A stretch of 64,000 bases of DNA from Filomicrobium sp. (lineage in GTDB: Bacteria > Pseudomonadota > Alphaproteobacteria > Rhizobiales > Hyphomicrobiaceae), in NCBI GenBank assembly GCA_017792465.1, contig CP051234.1, positions 3,814,501 to 3,878,500 of the forward strand. The letters run 5' to 3'. Position 1 is the first letter of the stretch, and each line of letters starts with the position of its first letter. Of this stretch, positions 38,848 to 49,012 are shown in pieces. Under the pieces are notes generated by a model, which saw only the letters and a list, made by a program, of their open reading frames with translations, was not told where the DNA came from and did no database searches. Both the position numbers and the translations under genes were made by a program.

Positions 38848-39078
38848 GGGCGGGTGTTTCGGTCGGTGAATGACTTTTCGGGTGCTCGATGTTAACCGCT
38901 ATTTTGTGGGCGTGGAAGTTCGAGCGCTGTCGGCATGTCGCTTTGCGGGGCTTGTAAACTTTTCGAATTCAGAACGCCAATGGTCTTGGCTCACTGCCAT
39001 GTCAGTTCCCGGTGTAACAATCGACATCCTGCGCGCATATTAGGTTGCCTCGAATCTCAGCTTCAAGCGGAGCATTTC

Positions 39079-42000
39079 ATGGAAACCGGCGATCGGCTGC
39101 GCGTCTTTATCTCGTACTCGCGAAAAGATGGCGACTTTGCACTGCGGCTGCACGGGCTCTTAAAGGCTGCGGGCTTCGATGCCTATCTGGATGTGCACGA
39201 CATTGCCGCCGGTGAGGATTGGCGGGCGCGGTTGAGCGGTCTTATCGAGGCGGCGGATTGCGTCGTTTTTATTTTGTCGCCTGACAGTTTGGCGTCGCAA
39301 ACCTGCGCCTGGGAAGTCGAGCGGACAGAGGAGTTGGCCAAGCGGTTATTGCCTGTCGTCTATCGCGAAGCCGGTTCTATCGAAATTCCGGGCGCTCTTG
39401 CCAAGCGTAATTTTGTCTTCATGCGGAGTCAGGCAGAAGAGGAGGCCTCGCTAGAAGCTCTTTGTGCTGCCATCGCTGTCGATGTTGAGTGGCTGCGGCG
39501 TCATACGCGTTACGGGGAACGTGCGCTTGAATGGGATCGTGCTTCCCGCGCCTCACGCCTGCTGCTACGTGGCGACGATATTCGCATAGCCGAAGCGTGG
39601 CGCGATGCAAGGCCCTCGGCTGCGGAGATTACCGAACTTCAAAGTGTGTATGTGACCGACAGCCGACGCGCGTCGACGCGGCGGCAGCGCGGTTGGATTT
39701 TCGGATCAAGCATCATTGCGACCGGTGCTATCGGTCTGGCGACTTTTGCGGTTGTCAAAAGCATCGAGGCACAGACGAAAGAGCGCGCGGCGACCGAGGA
39801 GCGCAACCGCGCGCTGATGACGGAATCACGTTTTTTGGCCGACGCTTCGCAAAAGCGCCGCGAGGCAGGCGACGCAGCGGGCGCAGTCGAATTGGCTCTG
39901 TGGGGGCTGCCGAAGACTCCTGCGGCGCCGGATGCGCGTCCGCTTTCGCTAGAGGCAAGGCGTGCGCTTTACGACGGTCTGCTGACGCTGCGTGAGACGG
40001 CGGCGCTGACAGGGCACCAGAAAACGGTTGGGCACGTCGCTTTCTCACCCGATGGACAGCATGTCCTGACAGCGTCGCAAGACGGATTTGCAGCGTTGTG
40101 GCGCGTCGACGGTGGTCGTGAAGCGTCTTTTGGAGATCATCGTGGAGCTCTCCATCGCGCTTTGTTTGTCGGCGACGGGTCTAAGGTTTTGACGACGGCT
40201 GAGGGTGGCCTTGCGGCGCTTTGGCGGGCTGACGGAAAGCTTATTGTTCAGCTGCAAGGGGATGACGGTGCGTTGGCCCCTTATGTCGCCGCATCGCGCG
40301 ATGGCCGTTGGATTGCGACCGGCGGGGCGAGCGGACAAGTCCGTATCTGGTCGTCCGATGGGCAATTGAAGCAAACGCTTGTCGGGCATGAGAAGTCGAT
40401 TGGAGGACTGGAATTTGCGCCGGACGGGGCCATCCTGGCGAGCGGTTCGAGTGACGGGACGATCAAGCTTTGGTCGCTGGCAGACGGAGAGTGGACTTCC
40501 GCCGCCACACTCAGCGACTTGGGTTCCACCGCGAACCACATCGCTTTCAACGCGACCGGGGATCTGCTTGCCGCCGCCGATCTTAGCGATAACATTGCGA
40601 TTTGGCGGCGCTCGGCAGGCGAAGGCTGGCGTCTCGTCAAGACAGTGAAGGCGCATGCCAGTGGATCATTGCTGTCGGGTGCGTTGGCGCTCGGCTGGCA
40701 TCCGTCGCAAGAAATTATTTTGTCAGCTGGCTATGACGACGTCGCGCAGCTTTGGAATGCTGACGGGACATTGCTCAGGACGTTGCGCGGCCATACCGGC
40801 GATGTCGTTGCTGCTGAGTTCAGTCCCGATGGGCGCATTGTTCTGACGGCGTCGCGTGATGGTTCGGCGATGATTTGGGATATGTCCGGCCGGCGGTTGT
40901 TGACGCTGGGCGGGGGAGACGTGCCGCTCGAAGATGCTGGCTTTAGCCCGGATGGGAAGTCCGTGGCCCTCGCGCGAGATGATGGAGCGGTTCGGCTGTT
41001 TTCGCTTCTGCCTCGCGGCGTGGCGCGTCTGTCAGGAGGTGCCGGCCCGCTTCGAAAGGTCGAATTCTCGCCGGAAGGCAGAACGTTGGCGATTGCTGGC
41101 AACGATGCTTCGGCACGTGTTTGGCAACGCGAAGATCCATCTGCCGGTGAGGCAGCGCAAACGCTTTTCGACCAGACCGGCCAATGGGTCGTCCAACCGC
41201 TGCTTGCTGCGCATCAACCCGGCAACGTGTTTTTCAAAGGCGCCGCTGCGCTTGCCGTCTCGCCGGATGGACAGCAAGTACTGACCGGAGGCTTCGATGG
41301 AATAACGAAGATTCACGACATCAAAACGCAAAGCGCGCAGGATCTAACCGGGCATTCGAACAGTATTGTTTCGGCGGCATTCGCTCCAACGGGTGATGTG
41401 GCGGCGACGGCATCCCGCGATGGCACGGTCCGGCTTTGGCGAAACGGACTGTCGGATGCGACGTCAGGATGGAGCCTGGCCTCGGAGATCAAGCTCGGTA
41501 GCACGTCGGCCCGGGAAGTTGTCTTCATGCCTGATGGTCTGGGCCTCGTAACGCTCGCCCAGGACAAATTTCTTGATCCTTCGGCCTCGGTGATCGAAGT
41601 TTGGAAGTTTAGCCCTGGCGATATGTCTGTGACGCGAAGTGCGCGCATTGCGATCGAGGCGCGCGGGGCGATGGATATCGATCTTGATCCTCCAGGAAAG
41701 CGGATCGGCGTTGCCAGAATGGATGGGTCGATCGAGGTCTATGAGTTGTCGGGAAGGCTGGTTGCCAGGTCGCAGAGAGCTCATGGCGGACAGCCCGTCC
41801 TCAAAGTTGTTTTCTCAAAGGACGCCGATATTTTCGCAAGTGTTGCCGGTGATGCGGTCGCGCGGATCTGGCGTATCGATGCCGGCGAGGTGCAGGGGGG
41901 CCACTCGCTCAATCGTATTACCGAGCTTATTGGTCATCAAAGTGGCGGACTTCTGCAAGGTGGCATTCAGTCAGGAATTGCCGATATCGATTTCGCTCAG

Positions 42001-42753
42001 GATAACCGGATGATTGCCACTGCGGGTCGCGACGGTACCGTGAAGGTCTGGACGATGGACGGCAGTGTTTTGGGTGTCCTGAGAGGTGGCGGAACGGCGG
42101 AAGATGTGACTTTCAACGCTAAAGGTTCTTTGATTGCGACGGCGTGGAGTGATGGCTTCGCGCGCGTTTTTCCCGCTCCGCCGCCGATCGCGGGTTTGCT
42201 CTCTTCGGGGCGTCAAGTTGTCGAGCGGTTGCGACCGCTTTCGGCGATCGATCGCTGCCTTGTCTTTCTGCAGACCTCGCCTTGCGATCAGAGTTTTCGC
42301 AACGCAGAGGAGGCACGCGCTGCTGGCGACTATGCGGCGGCCGCGCAACATATGGTTTCCAGGATTGCAGCCGCCGAGCGTTTGACGCCCGCTGCGCGAG
42401 CGGTCCTTGCCACGGATTATGGGGTGCTGGCTTTCGATTATCTCTTTGCGCGCGAATTCGCAAAAGCCGAAGCGGCTGCGCGGCAGGGACTGACCTACAA
42501 CCCAGATGCTCATTGGATCGCGGGGAACCTGGCGCATGCGGCGTTGCTGCAAGGGCAGGTCAAAGAGGCAAAGGCGATTTACATGCAGAATGCTGGGCGC
42601 CAGCTCGAAATCGGGATGCGCTGGGAAAGTGCGGTCGCCGACGATTTCGCAAAACTGACTGCAGCGGGGATCAAGCGGCCTGAGTTTCGCGACGTCTTGC
42701 AAGAGCTGGGCGTCTTCAAAGCGAATGCTTCAGGTGGCGACGAGACAAACTAG
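39079..42753 (+). CDS. TIR domain - transmembrane - WD40 propeller protein
   Basis: 1224 aa from the ATG at 39079, with GGAG six bases upstream; an upstream open stretch lacks such a site. The TIR domain spans ~5-135 (LRVFISYSRKDGDFALRL, then SPDSLASQTCAWEVE). Glu79 sits at the catalytic position of NAD-cleaving TIRs. A single membrane helix (~206-226) follows, then a short helical linker (NRALMTESRFLADASQKRRE). About sixteen WD40 units (~280-1040), each with FSPDG-like and DG-x3-W endings, would make two propellers. A C-terminal TPR-like helical region ends it. There is no NTPase domain. TIR then faces the cytosol if the N-terminus is inside, leaving the propellers outside, or the reverse. 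Possible roles are NADase-based defence or a signalling scaffold; neither is shown. Confidence 0.88.
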   Translation: METGDRLRVFISYSRKDGDFALRLHGLLKAAGFDAYLDVHDIAAGEDWRARLSGLIEAADCVVFILSPDSLASQTCAWEVERTEELAKRLLPVVYREAGSIEIPGALAKRNFVFMRSQAEEEASLEALCAAIAVDVEWLRRHTRYGERALEWDRASRASRLLLRGDDIRIAEAWRDARPSAAEITELQSVYVTDSRRASTRRQRGWIFGSSIIATGAIGLATFAVVKSIEAQTKERAATEERNRALMTESRFLADASQKRREAGDAAGAVELALWGLPKTPAAPDARPLSLEARRALYDGLLTLRETAALTGHQKTVGHVAFSPDGQHVLTASQDGFAALWRVDGGREASFGDHRGALHRALFVGDGSKVLTTAEGGLAALWRADGKLIVQLQGDDGALAPYVAASRDGRWIATGGASGQVRIWSSDGQLKQTLVGHEKSIGGLEFAPDGAILASGSSDGTIKLWSLADGEWTSAATLSDLGSTANHIAFNATGDLLAAADLSDNIAIWRRSAGEGWRLVKTVKAHASGSLLSGALALGWHPSQEIILSAGYDDVAQLWNADGTLLRTLRGHTGDVVAAEFSPDGRIVLTASRDGSAMIWDMSGRRLLTLGGGDVPLEDAGFSPDGKSVALARDDGAVRLFSLLPRGVARLSGGAGPLRKVEFSPEGRTLAIAGNDASARVWQREDPSAGEAAQTLFDQTGQWVVQPLLAAHQPGNVFFKGAAALAVSPDGQQVLTGGFDGITKIHDIKTQSAQDLTGHSNSIVSAAFAPTGDVAATASRDGTVRLWRNGLSDATSGWSLASEIKLGSTSAREVVFMPDGLGLVTLAQDKFLDPSASVIEVWKFSPGDMSVTRSARIAIEARGAMDIDLDPPGKRIGVARMDGSIEVYELSGRLVARSQRAHGGQPVLKVVFSKDADIFASVAGDAVARIWRIDAGEVQGGHSLNRITELIGHQSGGLLQGGIQSGIADIDFAQDNRMIATAGRDGTVKVWTMDGSVLGVLRGGGTAEDVTFNAKGSLIATAWSDGFARVFPAPPPIAGLLSSGRQVVERLRPLSAIDRCLVFLQTSPCDQSFRNAEEARAAGDYAAAAQHMVSRIAAAERLTPAARAVLATDYGVLAFDYLFAREFAKAEAAARQGLTYNPDAHWIAGNLAHAALLQGQVKEAKAIYMQNAGRQLEIGMRWESAVADDFAKLTAAGIKRPEFRDVLQELGVFKANASGGDETN

Positions 42754-42853: not shown

Positions 42854-43855
42854 CTAGCTTCCGCACGGAACGACGACGGTCGCAGCAGCCGAAGGGATGT
42901 AGCGACGGCAATCCTGCGCGACTTCAAGCTCGGCTCGTCCGGTGCGTTTCACTAGTTTCTTGGAGACTGGTCGGGAGACTTTGGAGTTCGAGCCTTTGAG
43001 GCCGTTGGCGCGATGGTCGAGTTCGTTGAGGCGCCGTTGGGCGTAGTCCTGCGAAGTCTCCCGATCGAGCGTCGGTCCGCCATTCTTCAAGGACATTCGA
43101 TAGGCCCGCTTGGCCTCTTCTTTTTCTCCGCGGCCGTCGAGGATTAGTCCGCGCAACGCGTAGGCGGCTGGAAACAGACTGCTCCGGTTCAAGGCTTTCT
43201 TGAGGTCAGCCATTGCGTTTTGGGTTGCGCCTCGCTGGTTGGCGACGACGGCGCGGACGTAGAAGCTGACGGGATCGCTGCGACGGGATGCAACGAGGCT
43301 TTCGGCTTCCTTGACGGCTTCGGTCAAGCGGCCAACATCGAGAAGGACGAGAGCATAAAGCGGTTTGAGGTCGCGCTCGAAGGGTTTCAGCTCGATGGCC
43401 TTGAGCAGCGGTTTCAAGGCTTGATCGGGTTTACCCATCTGTCTGAAGACGAGCGCGCGCTGGAAATAACCGTTCCAGTCCTTGGGTTGGTGAATGACGT
43501 AGATGTCGAGATCTTCCAATGCGCCTTGAAGGTCGCGCTGCTCGCGTTTCAGCATGCCTCTACTCAGATAGAGGTTGGCGAAGTCACGGTCGACGCGTTC
43601 GGCGGCGTTGAAATCGGCGAGCGATTTGTCGAGCTCTCCGCCGCGGCGATAGTACCAGCCGCGATTGTAATAGGCCATGAAGCGGTCAGCGGGTTTGGTC
43701 GTTGGATTTCTGATGATGCGCGTGCAGGCCGCTTCAGCATTTTTTCTGACTGTGATGCCGCAGGTGATCCTGTCGGAAGGAGACGCGTGGGCCGTCAGCG
43801 CGGTTGCGGCGATTGACAGGAACGTCAATCCAATTCGCGAGAGTGAGCGCTGCAT
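42854..43855 (-). CDS. Secreted TPR protein with terminal DCR...VPC motif, paralogue
   Basis: 333 aa from the ATG at 43855 (AAGGA nine bases upstream). A signal peptide (MQRSLSRIGLTFLSIAATAL, cleavage near AHA) precedes an N-terminal Cys pair (ITCGITVRKNAEAACTRII) and TPR units from FMAYYNRGWYYRRGGELDKS onward. The C-terminus DCRRYIPSAAATVVVPCGS is alignable without gaps to that of the protein at 36790-37731. The two are clearly paralogous but on opposite strands, bracketing the CBS, NUDIX and TIR-WD40 genes. Convergent with the TIR-WD40 gene. Function unknown. Confidence 0.82.
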   Translation of the reverse strand: MQRSLSRIGLTFLSIAATALTAHASPSDRITCGITVRKNAEAACTRIIRNPTTKPADRFMAYYNRGWYYRRGGELDKSLADFNAAERVDRDFANLYLSRGMLKREQRDLQGALEDLDIYVIHQPKDWNGYFQRALVFRQMGKPDQALKPLLKAIELKPFERDLKPLYALVLLDVGRLTEAVKEAESLVASRRSDPVSFYVRAVVANQRGATQNAMADLKKALNRSSLFPAAYALRGLILDGRGEKEEAKRAYRMSLKNGGPTLDRETSQDYAQRRLNELDHRANGLKGSNSKVSRPVSKKLVKRTGRAELEVAQDCRRYIPSAAATVVVPCGS

Positions 43856-44096
43856 CTTATCGGTCCTTGTCCCTTGGCTGGTGATGCCGCAGGCCATCGG
43901 CAATCTGTCGTGAGGGCGGCGGGGCGCTGTGACGCGCTGCCTGTATCGATTGGATCGCGAAGCCTGTTTGCTGTTTCGCAAAATGTAACGGGATTTGATG
44001 TCCGGCGGCGTTCCCACAGGAACAGCCAGGCGTTCGAAAATGCGTGGTGCAGGAATTAAGGAGAGAGGTGGTTCGAGGCTCGTGAGGCTGAGGAGC

Positions 44097-45272
44097 CTAG
44101 CGGCCGAAGAACTTTTGCAGACGCGAGCGGAAGGCCGCCTTTTCAGTTGGATTGGGAAGCTGCTCTTCCAGGAATTCGATCAACTCCGTGACGGAAGACG
44201 CCGTCTTTGCCATGCGGTTCACCATGACCTTGGCGACTGGCCCTGCGTAGACGGCCAGCGCTTCGGCGACCTGTGCGATTTCGCTTTCGGCTATTTGGGC
44301 CGGAGCCGGTTTGGCGACTGGTGGTGCGGGTGTTTTAGGCTTGGGGGTCGGCTTCGGCTCGGGTGGGGGAGCGGCCACAGGCGGAGGCGGTTCTGTCTTG
44401 GGCGGTGGAGGCGAGACCGGTGGTGCTTTCTCCGTCTGTGGAGCGGGTGGAGATGCCGGCGGCGACTGAGGTGGAGTTTGCACCTCCTGGGTCGGGATGG
44501 GATCGGCCTGTGTTGCTTCAGTGTCCTCCTCGGTCGGCGTTCCAAAGCGCGCAACGGATATCGCCTCCTGAAGGCTGACGCGCGGCGCGGACTTTGGCGG
44601 TTCGGGTTCCGGTTGTACGGGCGCTTTCGGCGCATCCAGCTTTTTTCCAACGAGATGCATCGTACTGTCGAGAGCAGGGCGTTTTGGCGCTCCAAGATCG
44701 GTGTCGGACAGACGTTCGGCGGCGTGAACGGCATAGGTGGTGATTCGGCGTGGGATATTCTTGAGGCGCGGGACGCCGCGCTCTTCGAACGTCGCCTGAA
44801 TTCTGGCGGAGACAGAGTCGACGACGGTTCCGGAGATCAATATCCCGCCAGGGTCGGCGAGGCTTTCCAATCTCGCGGCGATGTTGAGGGTTTCGCCGAA
44901 GGGTAGATCGCCTTCAAACAGGACGTCGCCGACGTGAATGCCGATGCGCAGTTTCATGCCGCCGAGATTGGTTTCCTGGCCGAGGCGTTCCTGGATGGCG
45001 AGCGCGCATTGAACGGCGTCGACGGCGCTTTCGAATAACGCAAACAGGCCATCTCCCGGCATGCCGATCAGCTTGCCATCGTGCCGGTCGAGTTCTTCCT
45101 GGCCGATTTTCAGGACGGTCGACAGGTTGCCGAAGGCGCGCGTCTCGTTGACGGAAACGCGTCCGCTGAAGTTGGCGATGTCGGCGGCAAAGGCGGCGCG
45201 CAAGCGGCGCTTGCGTTTGGGTTGGGTCTCGGCGGTGTTATCGTCGATGGGCGGCGACATGCTGACGTTCAA
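44097..45272 (-). CDS. Class III adenylate/guanylate cyclase with Pro-rich linker and C-terminal module
   Basis: 391 aa, soluble. The cyclase domain spans ~25-185: metal-binding Asp31 (AADIANFSG) and Asp74 (MPGDGLFALF), and transition-state residues Asn130 and Arg134 (GETLNIAARLE), so it is probably active. A ~110-residue Pro-rich linker (~225-325) connects to a ~53-residue C-terminal module (339-391; AGPVAKVMVNRMAKTA) that is also present twice in the kinase encoded immediately upstream. The start overlaps the kinase stop by four bases (ATGA), so translation is coupled. The product nucleotide is most likely cAMP but is not proven. It is the last gene of the haem-sensor/kinase/cyclase operon. 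Confidence 0.9.
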   Translation of the reverse strand: MNVSMSPPIDDNTAETQPKRKRRLRAAFAADIANFSGRVSVNETRAFGNLSTVLKIGQEELDRHDGKLIGMPGDGLFALFESAVDAVQCALAIQERLGQETNLGGMKLRIGIHVGDVLFEGDLPFGETLNIAARLESLADPGGILISGTVVDSVSARIQATFEERGVPRLKNIPRRITTYAVHAAERLSDTDLGAPKRPALDSTMHLVGKKLDAPKAPVQPEPEPPKSAPRVSLQEAISVARFGTPTEEDTEATQADPIPTQEVQTPPQSPPASPPAPQTEKAPPVSPPPPKTEPPPPVAAPPPEPKPTPKPKTPAPPVAKPAPAQIAESEIAQVAEALAVYAGPVAKVMVNRMAKTASSVTELIEFLEEQLPNPTEKAAFRSRLQKFFGR

Positions 45273-46681
45273 TCATTCAATTTCGGACGGTTTGCCGAAA
45301 GAAATTTCTCCCGGTCGGCGTCATTGGTGATGCGCCGTGCAATGTGGTCGTAAAAATCGGCTATTCCTATTGCTGACTTGGCTTCGCGGTCGACGATCAA
45401 TCGCGCCATCGGGCCGATGAGCGGCAGGAGTGCTTCGGCGGCCTTATGGCGTTCGGCATCCGATATGATTGCGCTCATTTGTGCCCCGGTGACGCCTCTG
45501 TCTGTTTCCAGCCACGCCTGGGCGGCTTTGCGAAAGCGTTCGGCTTGTGTCTCGCCAGGGATCTGGCTGGCGAGTTGGCTGACGAGCTTGTCGGGATCGG
45601 TTGCGCTTTTGGCTTCGCGTGAGACGACGACGCGTGCGATCGGGCCGATCTCGCGGGCCAGCGTCGATTCCAAGCCTTGAAGCGTCGCAGGCGCCAGTCG
45701 ATCCGCCATGGTCTGGCTTAGGTCGCTGCGGGAGGTTTCGTTTGCACCTTGTGCCGGGCGCACCGCGAGGCCGGTCAGATCCACTCTGGCAACCGGGGCG
45801 GACGGCGTTGCGTTGAAGGACGCTTCGAGCCCGCTGATGAAGGCTTCGGCGTTCGCGAAGCGGTCGGTTGGGTTGCGGGCCAGCGCTTTTCGCATCAGCG
45901 CGTCGATTTCGGGCTGCAATTCGGGCCGTAGCTGGGTGACAGGAACCGGGTCCTCGTTTAGCAGCTTGTGCATGAGGCTCGGGATGTCGTTGGCCGGAAA
46001 CGGTTTGGCGCCGGTCAGCAGCTGATAGAGGATGATCGCGGCGGCGAACAAGTCCGAGCGGCCATCGACTTCGCGGCCCAGAAACTGTTCCGGCGACATG
46101 TAATTGGGCGTGCCGACGGCCCCACCGCCGCCGTCGCGGGTCAGGCTGAGATTTTCGAAACGGGCGACGCCAAAGTCGGTGACCTTGATCGAGGTTGCGG
46201 CCGGGCACAGGATGTTGGCGGGTTTGACGTCGCGATGGATGACGCTGTTTTCGTGCGCGTGGCCCAAAGCTGAGAGCAACTGAACCATGACTTCGCAGAC
46301 CTGCGGAAGCGGAAGCAGGGTGCCGGAGCGCGTGACATTTTCGAGCGTACCGGCTTCGACGAACTCCATGATGATGTAAGGGGAGTGGTCCTGCTCGACG
46401 TAATCGAACACGGTGACGATGTTAGGGTGCTGACAACGCCCGGCCGAGCGCGCTTCGCTGGCGAAGCGGGCCAGAAGGGCGGCCTGGTCCTGAACCTCGG
46501 CAAGGACTTCCTTGCGCAGCGATTTGATTGCAACCGGCCGGCAGATCTGCGGGTCGAAGCCCTTATAGATCACGCCGATCGCGCCGCGTCCGATGATGCC
46601 ATCGATGCGATATTTGCCGACATGCTCCGGGGCGGCGTCGGATTGGGCTGCCGCAGGGTTGTCGGAATTTTCGGCGCTCAT
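45269..46681 (-). CDS. Hanks-type Ser/Thr protein kinase with duplicated C-terminal module
   Basis: 470 aa, cytosolic (no membrane helix, unlike PknB-type kinases). The kinase domain spans ~24-285: glycine loop IGRGAIGVIYKG, Lys53 (VAIKSLRKE), catalytic loop HRDVKPANIL (Asp151), DFG (169-171), activation segment GTPNYMSPEQF. All catalytic residues are present. The C-terminal part has two ~51-residue modules (341-391 with IGPIARVVVSREAKSA and 417-467 with IGPMARLIVDREAKSA) that match the end of the downstream cyclase. GAGGA nine bases before the ATG is the ribosome site. It lies 76 bases after the haem-HAMP sensor gene. It probably phosphorylates or recruits the cyclase. Confidence 0.93.
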   Translation of the reverse strand: MSAENSDNPAAAQSDAAPEHVGKYRIDGIIGRGAIGVIYKGFDPQICRPVAIKSLRKEVLAEVQDQAALLARFASEARSAGRCQHPNIVTVFDYVEQDHSPYIIMEFVEAGTLENVTRSGTLLPLPQVCEVMVQLLSALGHAHENSVIHRDVKPANILCPAATSIKVTDFGVARFENLSLTRDGGGGAVGTPNYMSPEQFLGREVDGRSDLFAAAIILYQLLTGAKPFPANDIPSLMHKLLNEDPVPVTQLRPELQPEIDALMRKALARNPTDRFANAEAFISGLEASFNATPSAPVARVDLTGLAVRPAQGANETSRSDLSQTMADRLAPATLQGLESTLAREIGPIARVVVSREAKSATDPDKLVSQLASQIPGETQAERFRKAAQAWLETDRGVTGAQMSAIISDAERHKAAEALLPLIGPMARLIVDREAKSAIGIADFYDHIARRITNDADREKFLSANRPKLND

Positions 46682-46757
46682 TGGCTACCATCCTCAACTT
46701 GGCAGGCCCAGATTGCCGGCGCGGACAATCCGCACCGGCGAGGCTCAAGGCTTGCTC

Positions 46758-47630
46758 TTAAGATTCCAGCATTTTCATTGCGTTGTCGAGACTGCGGCGC
46801 ATTCGGTTGAACGATTGCGATAGCGAGGCAATCTCGTCGGAGCCTGGATGCTCATACTCAGGCTGTGAACTGTCGCCCATGCTGACCTGCTCGGCGATGT
46901 GTGCCATCTTGATGACCGGGGAGACGACCATCCAGCGCAAGAGAACGTTGATCAGGATGAGCAAGACGAGGAAGATCGCGCTCATGGAGCCGATCAACAA
47001 CTTCAGGTTCTGCCAGGTCTGCTCTTCTGCAACCTTCAAAGGCACCGAGAAGATTTGCGCGCCGACGATTTCGTCGAGCTGCCAGCCGAATCCGTTCTTG
47101 TCGCCGTAAAGCGCGACCATCGAGGCGGGCGCGCGATCCGGCGTCGAGTGGCACGAGAGGCAGCTTTCGGCTTTGATTTGCAGGGGGAAGGCAACGGTAT
47201 ACTGGGGGCCGTCCTTGCCGTCGCGGACCTTGACAACTTCTTTCAGCGAGGTGTTGTCGCGCAATTGGTCAATCAGTTCCTTTTCCCAGTCGGAGGCCAG
47301 GTCCGAGGGGTTGGTCGGGTTAAGGACCGCCTCCTTGTAGTAGAAGTCGGGGAAATGATCGCGGAAGTTGCTGAAGGCGGTCTGGGCTGAGAACGAGGGC
47401 ACGGTCTGTGGCAGGAACTGCACGTCAGACATGTCGCTCAACAGCGGGCGGACTTCTTCGGACGTATAGCGCCTGACGGCCAGGGCCTGTGCGCGCAAGA
47501 CGCCGATCTGCGCATGCAGCTGCTCAAGTGCGTTTTCCTTGGAGACCTGATAGAACACCGCCGAAGAGGCAATCAGGCCGATGATAAAGCAAAGTGCTAA
47601 GATTAGATTGAACTTCAGCCTCAGTCCCAT
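46758..47630 (-). CDS. Membrane haem-c sensor (Tll0287-like/DUF3365) with HAMP domain
   Basis: 290 aa. TM1 (~7-27), a periplasmic Tll0287-like domain (~35-200) with one CXXCH haem c motif at 157-161 (ESCLSCHSTPDRAP), TM2 (~211-232), then HAMP (~233-285). The protein ends right after HAMP, with no methyl-accepting, kinase or cyclase output of its own. Family members bind haem c and are thought to sense redox state or gases such as NO. The signal must therefore pass to a partner; the Ser/Thr kinase encoded 76 bases downstream is the obvious candidate. AGAGGGA lies about seven bases before the ATG. Cytochrome c maturation is needed for haem attachment. Confidence 0.9.
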   Translation of the reverse strand: MGLRLKFNLILALCFIIGLIASSAVFYQVSKENALEQLHAQIGVLRAQALAVRRYTSEEVRPLLSDMSDVQFLPQTVPSFSAQTAFSNFRDHFPDFYYKEAVLNPTNPSDLASDWEKELIDQLRDNTSLKEVVKVRDGKDGPQYTVAFPLQIKAESCLSCHSTPDRAPASMVALYGDKNGFGWQLDEIVGAQIFSVPLKVAEEQTWQNLKLLIGSMSAIFLVLLILINVLLRWMVVSPVIKMAHIAEQVSMGDSSQPEYEHPGSDEIASLSQSFNRMRRSLDNAMKMLES

Positions 47631-47719: not shown

Positions 47720-49012
47720 ATGACAGCTCGCAAATCATTTCGGTTTAATTTTCTTCTGTCGGGTTTGTGCACGCTGCGCTGTTTCCCAGGGATCAATCGT
47801 CAAATCAAAGGTGCGGCTCTTCGCGTCGGCCCTGTTTTACTGTCGGTTCTGGCCCTCGGGTTTGCCATTAGCGCGCCGGCTGTTGCTGCTGCCGATCGAG
47901 TTGCGCTGGTGCTTGGCGTTGAAGACTACTCAAGCTACGCGAAATCTGCGATCAACGGCCAGACGCTCGAAAAAATCGGCAATGCCCTGAAAGAGAAGGG
48001 CTTCGAAGTTGAGGTTGCGTCCAACGTCAACAATGCTAACTCTCGCGCTATGCTGCGGGAGTTCGCCGGTAAAGCCGACGGGGCGCGCGTGGCGATCGTC
48101 GTCCTGGCCGGGCATGGTGTGGCTTCGGCGGGGCGGGCGTATCTGCTGCCGTCGAACTCGAAAATCCGCCGGGCCAGCGACCTGCTTTCGCGTGGGGTTT
48201 CGGTTTCGAGCGTTGCGCAAATCGCGGCGAAGGCGAAGCATGGGGCTGTTTTCTTTTTCGCGACGGTCGCGGATATTCCATCGACCCTGCAGAGCATCTC
48301 CCCGCGTCCCTCGATCAAGACGGTGCCGCATGACAATGTCATCGTCGTCTTCTCGACCTCCGACAAAATTCCAGTTTCTCGTGTGGGAAGCGTCTCGCGG
48401 CAGGCGGCGCTTGATTTCGCAGATGCTGCAACTGACACCCCGCTGACGCTTGAGACACTCGTTGGGGCTGGGTCGGCTGGCGATGTCGGCAAGGTCGTCG
48501 GTACGGTCGCGGATGTGGATCTCACCAAGGCTCCGGAGCCGGCTGCTCCGCCGCAAACCGCGCAGAACGATCTACAGACGGAGCAGGAGACCGCTGCCCG
48601 CGAGGAGGCCGAGCGGCGCGCGCGCGAAGCCGAACAGCGCGCCCGCGAAGCTGAGGCCAGGGCGAAGGAAGCAGAAGAGCGGGCTCGCCTGGAAGCTGAA
48701 AAGGCGGAAGAGGCGCGGAACGAGGCAGAAGCGAACCAAGTTGCAAATCAAGTCGAGGAGCCGCCGAAGCCTGCTGCCGAGCCGGAACCGGCGAATGTCG
48801 AAGCGCTGAAGCTCGTCGAAGCCTTGCTTGGGCGTTCGAAAAAGAAAGATCTGCAGCGTGAGCTGGCAAAGCGTGGGTTCTACAAGGGGCCGATCGATGC
48901 GATCTTCGGGGATCTGACACGTCAGGGGATCCGGGATTTCCAATCGGATGCCGGGGCGGCGGTGACGGGCTATCTGACGCCCGAGCAGATTCAGAAGCTC
49001 ATCGAAGGCTGA
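47720..49012 (+). CDS. Secreted caspase-fold pseudo-enzyme with peptidoglycan-binding-like domain
   Basis: 430 aa. A signal peptide (~35-58; VLLSVLALGFAISAPAVAAA) directs it to the periplasm. A caspase-like peptidase C14 fold spans ~59-250 (DRVALVLGVEDYSSY; His132 in VLAGHGVAS). Where active caspases have DAC-R/Q, this protein reads FFFATVADIP, placing Val183 at the Cys position, so it should be catalytically dead. An Ala/Glu/Arg coiled coil (~285-350) and a C-terminal peptidoglycan-binding-like domain (~365-430; LQRELAKRGFYKGPIDAIFG, then LTPEQIQKL) follow. It is divergent from the haem-sensor/kinase/cyclase operon across 89 bases, so a shared control region is likely. Confidence 0.82.
   Translation: MTARKSFRFNFLLSGLCTLRCFPGINRQIKGAALRVGPVLLSVLALGFAISAPAVAAADRVALVLGVEDYSSYAKSAINGQTLEKIGNALKEKGFEVEVASNVNNANSRAMLREFAGKADGARVAIVVLAGHGVASAGRAYLLPSNSKIRRASDLLSRGVSVSSVAQIAAKAKHGAVFFFATVADIPSTLQSISPRPSIKTVPHDNVIVVFSTSDKIPVSRVGSVSRQAALDFADAATDTPLTLETLVGAGSAGDVGKVVGTVADVDLTKAPEPAAPPQTAQNDLQTEQETAAREEAERRAREAEQRAREAEARAKEAEERARLEAEKAEEARNEAEANQVANQVEEPPKPAAEPEPANVEALKLVEALLGRSKKKDLQRELAKRGFYKGPIDAIFGDLTRQGIRDFQSDAGAAVTGYLTPEQIQKLIEG

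Follow-up and report, generated by a model that had tools for sequence, protein, structure and literature searches.

The 64,000-nt window of Filomicrobium sp. analyzed here (positions 3,814,501 to 3,878,500 of contig CP051234.1) encodes a membrane receptor that carries a haem-c sensor and ends at its HAMP domain (S), followed by a soluble Ser/Thr kinase (K) and a class III nucleotide cyclase (C) that share a small helical module at their C-termini. Our results suggest that these proteins likely constitute a modular split transmembrane receptor: the HAMP-ended sensor would dock soluble effectors tagged with this module, which resembles the STAC domain, and the output would be interchangeable. 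Behind this proposal stand the domain content of the proteins, the conserved pairing of receptor and module, the fusion and swapping of outputs, the use of the module with other sensors and the conservation of catalytic residues, all of which we observed.

A HAMP-ended receptor encoded beside two module-bearing enzymes

The genome that contains the window is a single contig of 4.47 Mb. S, K and C are co-directional on the minus strand, with a gap of 76 nt between S and K, which bears out the one-direction gene set described in the initial annotation of this DNA. The closest S proteins are those of Filomicrobium-type metagenome-assembled genomes (MAGs), and S was found in six of the nine genomes of the genus. 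The genes and their modules are located as follows.

46758..47630, minus strand: S, membrane receptor of 290 amino acids (aa) composed of a transmembrane (TM) helix, a haem-c Cache domain (Tll0287-like/sCache_heme), a second TM helix and HAMP (Pfam PF11845 E 8e-36; HAMP E 7e-10; CLSCH at residues 157-161)
45269..46681, minus strand: K, soluble Hanks-type Ser/Thr kinase of 470 aa with two C-terminal STAC-like modules (Pkinase E 1.3e-49)
45512..45682, minus strand: first STAC-like module of K (blastp, own profile)
45281..45451, minus strand: second STAC-like module of K (blastp, own profile)
44097..45272, minus strand: C, class III nucleotide cyclase of 391 aa with a TTG start, a Pro-rich linker and one C-terminal STAC-like module (Guanylate_cyc E 2.4e-9)
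44109..44279, minus strand: STAC-like module of C (own profile)

S matches PF11845 with 124.1 bits (curated cut-off 24.1). Its HAMP domain (residues 230-281 of 290) is the sole cytosolic domain and the protein stops 9 residues past the Pfam match, in agreement with the initial description of a haem-c membrane sensor that ends right after HAMP and lacks an output. The Pkinase and Guanylate_cyc matches likewise support the earlier reading of the next two genes as a Hanks kinase and then a class III cyclase. We aligned S of the window with 69 S proteins from surveyed loci that present a kinase motif downstream (69 of the 80 loci described below). C157, C160 and H161 are kept in all 70 sequences, residues 31-205 contain only the two cysteines of the CxxC in all 70, and R276, R278 and R279 of the C-terminal tail are kept in 99-100% of them.

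The C-terminal module common to the kinase and the cyclase, already noticed in the initial annotation, is a helical segment of about 57 residues that is present twice in K and once in C (blastp of K against C, E 4e-7 and 2e-6). The genome contains three copies of this module, all within K and C (45-row profile, all 78 candidates scored). The proposed coupling of the two genes by ATGA had to be corrected: the overlap is TTGA, in which the TTG start of C overlaps the TGA stop of K, while the ATGA string lies in another frame than C. An in-frame ATG is found 12 nt further on.

The receptor is consistently paired with a module-bearing partner

Two peptide patterns specific to S, together with the S alignment, were used to scan species genomes. 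This confirmed 190 relatives, of which the best 80 were kept. These loci belong mostly to Alpha-, Beta- and Gammaproteobacteria, and their neighboring genes were sorted by open reading frame (ORF) calls, blastp against the window proteins and our own hidden Markov models. We observed that a module-bearing partner adjoins S in 75 of the 80 loci. These partners comprise 44 fusions with the arrangement kinase-cyclase-module-module, 23 kinases with two modules, 6 two-module kinases followed by a separate one-module cyclase and 2 two-module cyclases without a kinase, and a single module protein is present in 69 of the 75 loci. Four of the remaining loci (L029, L052, L058 and L076) run off the end of their contig, and in three of these the beginning of a kinase is still visible; the fifth (L035) has no adjacent partner and its genome encodes a two-module kinase elsewhere.

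Chance adjacency of S and the kinase can be rejected: among the 861 genes of at least 200 aa in the 80 loci, 74 genes with a kinase motif lie within 700 bp of S versus 2 elsewhere, and one of these two (in L053) is in fact the adjacent gene with an ORF start called too early. A two-module cyclase directly follows S with no kinase in the neighborhood in L056, L060, L156 and L171 (the last two from the module search below); the genome of L156 carries a two-module kinase elsewhere (L166). A FastTree phylogeny of 106 receptors requires, by parsimony, at least eight switches between partner types (minimum possible, five; 29 of the 98 inner branches are well supported). One MAG (L070) is labelled Bordetella parapertussis, but its receptor tail and gene order are close to those of a betaproteobacterial MAG (L071) and the label looks doubtful.

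The module is paired with HAMP-ended receptors of several types

The search was also conducted in the opposite direction, starting from the module. The module was found in at least 7 of 397 Pseudomonadota genomes and in at least 37 of 399 genomes of one order, both counts being lower bounds with at most 16 candidates scored per genome. The resulting set contains 49 loci, i.e., all the listed places outside the window, of which 48 are testable (L167 is cut by a contig end). In 39 of these 48 loci, the neighbor of the module gene is a receptor that terminates in, or shortly after, an S-type HAMP; in 37 of the 39, no more than 6 residues separate the end of the HAMP model match from the C-terminus (14 and 17 residues in L192 and L193). 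According to the initial annotation, a lack of co-occurrence in other genomes would have spoken against a common system; the pairing recurs from both starting points, in 75 of 80 S loci and 39 of 48 module loci.

The outputs of the 49 loci are diverse. We identified 31 kinases (30 by motif and L116 by blastp), 4 cyclases (L156, L171, L178 and L187; Pfam missed L178), 2 TIR proteins (L117 and L181), 6 proteins with little beyond two modules (L179, L180, L183, L184, L186 and L188), 5 proteins with other N-termini and 1 MscS-like protein. The other N-termini include weak, below-cut-off Pfam matches to a response regulator (L193) and to DUF4388 (L190). The MscS-like protein (L192, 5672-7354) is of the mechanosensitive-channel type, shows a weak module match (E 4e-7) and adjoins an S-type receptor.

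The sensors vary as well: 9 of the 39 receptors lack CxxCH (L120, L121, L189, L190, L191, L179, L180, L183 and L184). The haem motif was lost in L120, whereas L121 presents Cache_3-Cache_2, L189 and L190 dCache_1 and L191 dCache_3. The last four of the nine adjoin mostly-module proteins, and HAMP was the only domain found in the two that were scanned (L179 and L180). Because receptors without CxxCH and other outputs are paired in the same way, the constant element is the HAMP-ended receptor together with the module, and neither the haem nor the kinase.

On plasmids, S relatives were found in 9 records, of which 7 were fetched. A two-module kinase adjoins S in Rhodovulum, Skermanella and two Caballeronia. 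The plasmid pP880101 of the cyanobacterium Rippkaea orientalis encodes an S-type receptor without an adjacent module gene and, elsewhere on the same plasmid, a protein that combines a caspase domain (motifs SGHG and DACH) with three copies of the module (L285, 2889-5276). No module was detected by our model in the loci of Kovacikia (L274) and Sphaerospermopsis (L276), and neither of these receptors ends at HAMP.

Finally, PF11845 is present in 105 members of a draw of 397 Pseudomonadota genomes, which seems to be the one used for the module search, and we took this family for a reciprocal check on 12 further PF11845 receptors from 11 genomes, picked mainly by ORF length. No module was found within 2.5 kb of the 7 receptors matched by the sensor model, the other 5 being unmatched by the model. 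L223 and L225 continue into other domains, and L226, L227, L228 and L232 present no HAMP by our own model.

The shared module resembles STAC

No Pfam family was significant for the module among the 45 members scanned (best E 0.011, in one member), and a known Pfam domain was therefore dropped as its identity; Pfam includes models of effector-associated domains (EADs). An alignment of 70 module rows presents an invariant G17, with L12, P18 and A20 each conserved in at least 90% of the rows and mostly I or L before the glycine. Passages of PMC4834066 describe STAC proteins such as Af1502 as having 60-90 residues and four helices, the first two separated by LGPx(x)A, and note that the neighboring gene of Af1502 encodes Af1503, an effectorless receptor terminated by HAMP. 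The [LI]GPxA motif of our module occupies this same position between helices 1 and 2.

AlphaFold2 models of K 320-470 predict four helices in the first module (12-26, 30-40, 44-52 and 58-74; pLDDT 89); the first module alone was modelled with a pLDDT of 95.6 and the first two helices merged. With both models, Foldseek placed Af1502 (5A1Q) at rank 1 of 350,542 PDB chains, with a probability of 0.60 and E 1.8 for K 320-470 and a probability of 0.85 and E 0.4 for the single module (next entry, probability 0.25). The VIA Z scores to Af1502 were 4.6 and 5.2 (the latter with a root mean square deviation of 3.1 over 60 aligned residues), and several unrelated helical rows presented equal or higher Z. 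At the sequence level, Af1502 ranked third of 11 rows (E 0.42), aligned over its IGPIA segment, and fourth of 10 rows with a narrower module profile (E 0.64). In addition, the top PDB match of the S profile was the HAMP domain of Af1503.

Taken in combination, the sequence, fold and motif comparisons and the Af1503 HAMP match suggest that the module is quite probably a STAC homologue. The alternative that it is a separate helical adaptor, unrelated to STAC and converged on the same arrangement, appears unlikely to us. In its favor, four-helix bundles are common, E to Af1502 exceeds 0.1 by both sequence and fold, and both VIA Z scores are inside the range of unrelated helical rows. Such convergence would however have to account for the first rank of Af1502 among all PDB chains with both models and its third rank by sequence, for the same motif at the same interhelical position, and for an S profile whose best structural match is encoded right beside Af1502.

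Conservation of the enzymes

K possesses the Gly loop, the Lys, the Glu, the HRD Asp and the DFG Asp. Of the 104 aligned kinases, which had been selected by their HRD motif, all but one retain Lys53 and all but one Glu76 (103 each, the exception being a gap), and all 104 retain Asp169; we take these to be the catalytic Lys, the Glu and the DFG Asp. C of the window has D31 and D74, presumably the metal-binding residues, as well as N130 and R134, presumably the transition-state residues. Its substrate-specifying residues look non-canonical by eye. The cyclase domains of the fusions were found with our own profile built from 9 cyclases, which yielded 57 matches already in the first round. Of the 57 cyclases, 42 retain D31, 48 retain D74, 48 retain R134 and 28 retain N130. 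The window-type cyclase differs by eye from the fusion type, and cyclases may therefore have been taken up as outputs on more than one occasion.

Probable ligand of the receptor

For Target 2 of P. azotoformans, a HAMP-type sCache_heme protein without an axial Cys, the preprint PMC12889525 describes tight NO binding, no stable oxy complex and a dimer in detergent. Like S, Target 2 has a haem-c Cache domain and two TM helices, the cytoplasmic part that is named is HAMP, and an axial Cys is lacking. Because of this likeness, the ligand of S is probably NO. It differs from S in that its description names no kinase partner, and the main text of PMC12889525, as far as covered here, never mentions serine, threonine, operon or genomic context.

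There is nevertheless a substantial, if smaller, chance that S senses the redox state or another ligand. Stand-alone members of the sCache_heme family behave as redox proteins (PMC12889525), and no Cu nitrite reductase match was detected in the window genome, for which a link to denitrification was dropped on this ground (the search covered neither NO reductase nor cd1 nitrite reductase). On the other hand, S presents the membrane-HAMP architecture and a sensor without Cys outside of the CxxC, as in the NO-binding Target 2. The window genome encodes two more Tll0287-like proteins of about 195 aa (L002 and L003), which are too short for HAMP; one of them adjoins a CxxCH-rich ORF.

A model of signaling in trans and its alternatives

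In the model that we favor, S is probably dimeric: its periplasmic haem-c Cache domain would bind a small ligand, most likely NO, the S dimer would change, and this change would pass to HAMP and the conserved C-terminal tail and alter their state. The STAC-like modules of K and C would dock on the HAMP end of S (or on its membrane-proximal face) and would transmit the conformational change of HAMP to the enzymes, switching kinase and cyclase. The presence of two modules in each kinase would be in keeping with a two-fold receptor. Kinases, cyclases, kinase-cyclase fusions, TIR proteins and others would plug into the same type of HAMP-ended receptor by the same module. Docking on HAMP, NO as the ligand, the direction of control, the products of the enzymes and true homology to STAC are steps that we infer. 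On balance, we also favor the broader view that such receptors form a general bacterial class, in which HAMP-terminated receptors with interchangeable sensors would signal in trans through one STAC-like plug to a Ser/Thr kinase, a class III cyclase, a kinase-cyclase fusion, a TIR protein, a caspase or possibly an MscS-type channel; the effectorless receptors of the Af1503 type would then be one of the two parts of a split receptor, with the enzyme on the other part.

The initial annotation had proposed a relay from sensor to kinase to cyclase. The split between sensor and output, the links of the sensor to a kinase and to a cyclase and the importance of the module are all retained in our model; the fixed order is not. 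A linear relay, in which S would activate K, K would phosphorylate and control C and the cyclic nucleotide would be the single output, is consistent with the S-K-C order with a module-bearing C (6 of 80 loci and the window), with the fusion of kinase and cyclase in 44 of 80, and with the kinase encoded elsewhere (L166) in the genome of the cyclase-only locus L156. This reading is nevertheless improbable: 23 of the 80 loci present a kinase without a module-bearing cyclase, the cyclase follows S without a neighboring kinase in the four loci given above (L056, L060, L156 and L171), and metal-binding Asp residues were lost in some cyclases. Since each enzyme is found with the receptor in the absence of the other, we prefer to view them as outputs plugged in side by side and not as links of a fixed chain, with the cyclase as one possible output instead of an obligatory third step.

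We consider it rather doubtful, too, that the module is a self-association domain which gathers kinases and cyclases in homo- or hetero-complexes without contacting the receptor, the synteny with S reflecting shared regulation only. Tandem modules in K, the six mostly-module proteins and a death-effector-domain chain among the weak Foldseek rows would fit this idea, as would the EADs of other systems, for which homotypic contacts have been proposed (in the sections of PMC7159879 concerned). However, what recurs next to the module, whatever the output, is a HAMP-ended receptor, even when the sensors are unrelated, and most loci of the S survey have one module protein (69 of 75).

Several observations weigh against the split receptor or limit its extent. 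No score taken by itself makes the match to STAC significant (sequence, E 0.42; Foldseek, E 0.4). The survey from S covers the S clade only, because two S-specific peptide patterns were used; it overlaps with the survey from the module (L043/L151), and many loci are related. Two of the genomes with truncated loci (G909, L029; G910, L076) gave no module match and a third (G912, L058) a weak one. Nine of the 48 module proteins are encoded without a receptor next to them (L160, L164, L166, L176, L178 and L185-L188); six of these are in genomes with another receptor-adjacent module locus, but L176 and L185 (both G740) are not. Some cyclases are probably inactive judging from their residues, and the cyclase may often be so because the metal Asp residues were lost in some; Pfam Guanylate_cyc was recognized in only one of the three fusions scanned (L064 but not L033 and L054). 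Lastly, L224 is a HAMP-type Tll0287 protein of 305 aa with no module shown within 2.5 kb. Because PF11845 receptors such as L224 show no module partner, the pairing rule holds for the S-type clade and not for every PF11845-HAMP protein.

Relation to known systems

The closest parallel is the Af1503/Af1502 pair of Archaeoglobus fulgidus, in which an effectorless HAMP-ended receptor likewise has a small helical neighbor that carries LGPx(x)A, as presented in the passages cited above. Af1502 is however a stand-alone protein without an enzyme, whereas the module described here is fused to a kinase, a cyclase or TIR. Transporter enrichment has been described around Af1503-like receptors. In the SLC5-STAC histidine kinases (CbrA and CrbS), the portions of PMC13022988 concerned propose STAC as the coupling domain between the membrane part and the kinase, as we propose for S; unlike in our system, STAC is there inside one histidine-kinase polypeptide, while here it tags separate Ser/Thr kinases and cyclases. 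An 830-aa SLC5 protein of L265 presented no module match, and the SLC5-type proteins of L268 and L269 have an H-box and no clear module match. Like our module, EADs are small adaptors without catalytic function that are linked to effector domains (PMC7159879, PMC8195603), but the module has no significant Pfam match and HAMP goes unmentioned in the text of both articles.

The claim of a new signaling system made in the initial annotation must therefore be narrowed: haem-c sensing by this domain is in print (PMC12889525), and an effectorless HAMP receptor with a small partner is known in archaea (PMC4834066). No title or abstract start among the literature matches listed ties STAC or HAMP-only receptors to Ser/Thr kinases or cyclases (full texts and the original STAC paper, J Mol Biol 2015;427:3327, were outside the scope of this search). 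Likewise, a split HAMP receptor of the Af1503/STAC type whose STAC-like partner carries the effector enzyme is not described among these matches.

The portions of the accounts of Af1503-like receptors and of HAMP-type sCache_heme proteins covered here give no answer as to how HAMP-ended receptors signal. The pairing names a partner, a likely docking module and natural swaps of output, which makes the question testable with small soluble proteins. If the model is true, bacterial Ser/Thr kinases and class III cyclases gain a periplasmic haem input, probably for NO, through a receptor in trans, and a similar input is suggested for some type VI secretion systems (T6SS).

Genomic surroundings

Two further genes flank the three-gene set.

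47720..49012, plus strand: divergent caspase-fold protein with a peptidoglycan-binding domain (Peptidase_C14 E 2e-10; PG_binding_1 E 1e-13)
42854..44017, minus strand: TPR protein downstream of C (domain match; membership in the system uncertain)

The caspase-fold protein, which the initial annotation does not mention, shows by eye no Cys at the expected place of the active site. Homologues lie beside S in 9 of the 80 loci, and upstream of S in L116; in the homologues of L032 and L116 the GHG motif was also lost. Its synteny with S is what suggests that this protein may belong to the system. The TPR protein is also found downstream of C in L024, L027 and L028. A 1272-aa protein with TIR and WD40 repeats is encoded close to the operon (38935-42753 of the window); no such gene adjoins S in those related loci of the Filomicrobium type that we inspected.

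PpkA is a kinase of threonine phosphorylation in type VI secretion. Some S-K pairs resemble PpkA-type kinases by their location: they lie within or beside T6SS genes in Skermanella, in two Caballeronia and in L118 (L273, L272 and L275 are among these loci), and L162 is about 4 kb from TssM. They differ in that TssM was seen in only 5 of the 133 loci scanned, and no TssM match was found in the window genome, for which a link to type VI secretion was accordingly dropped. In L275, a gene for a PP2C phosphatase follows the kinase. Because these S-K pairs lie within or beside T6SS genes, their proximity hints at a target of the kinase there.

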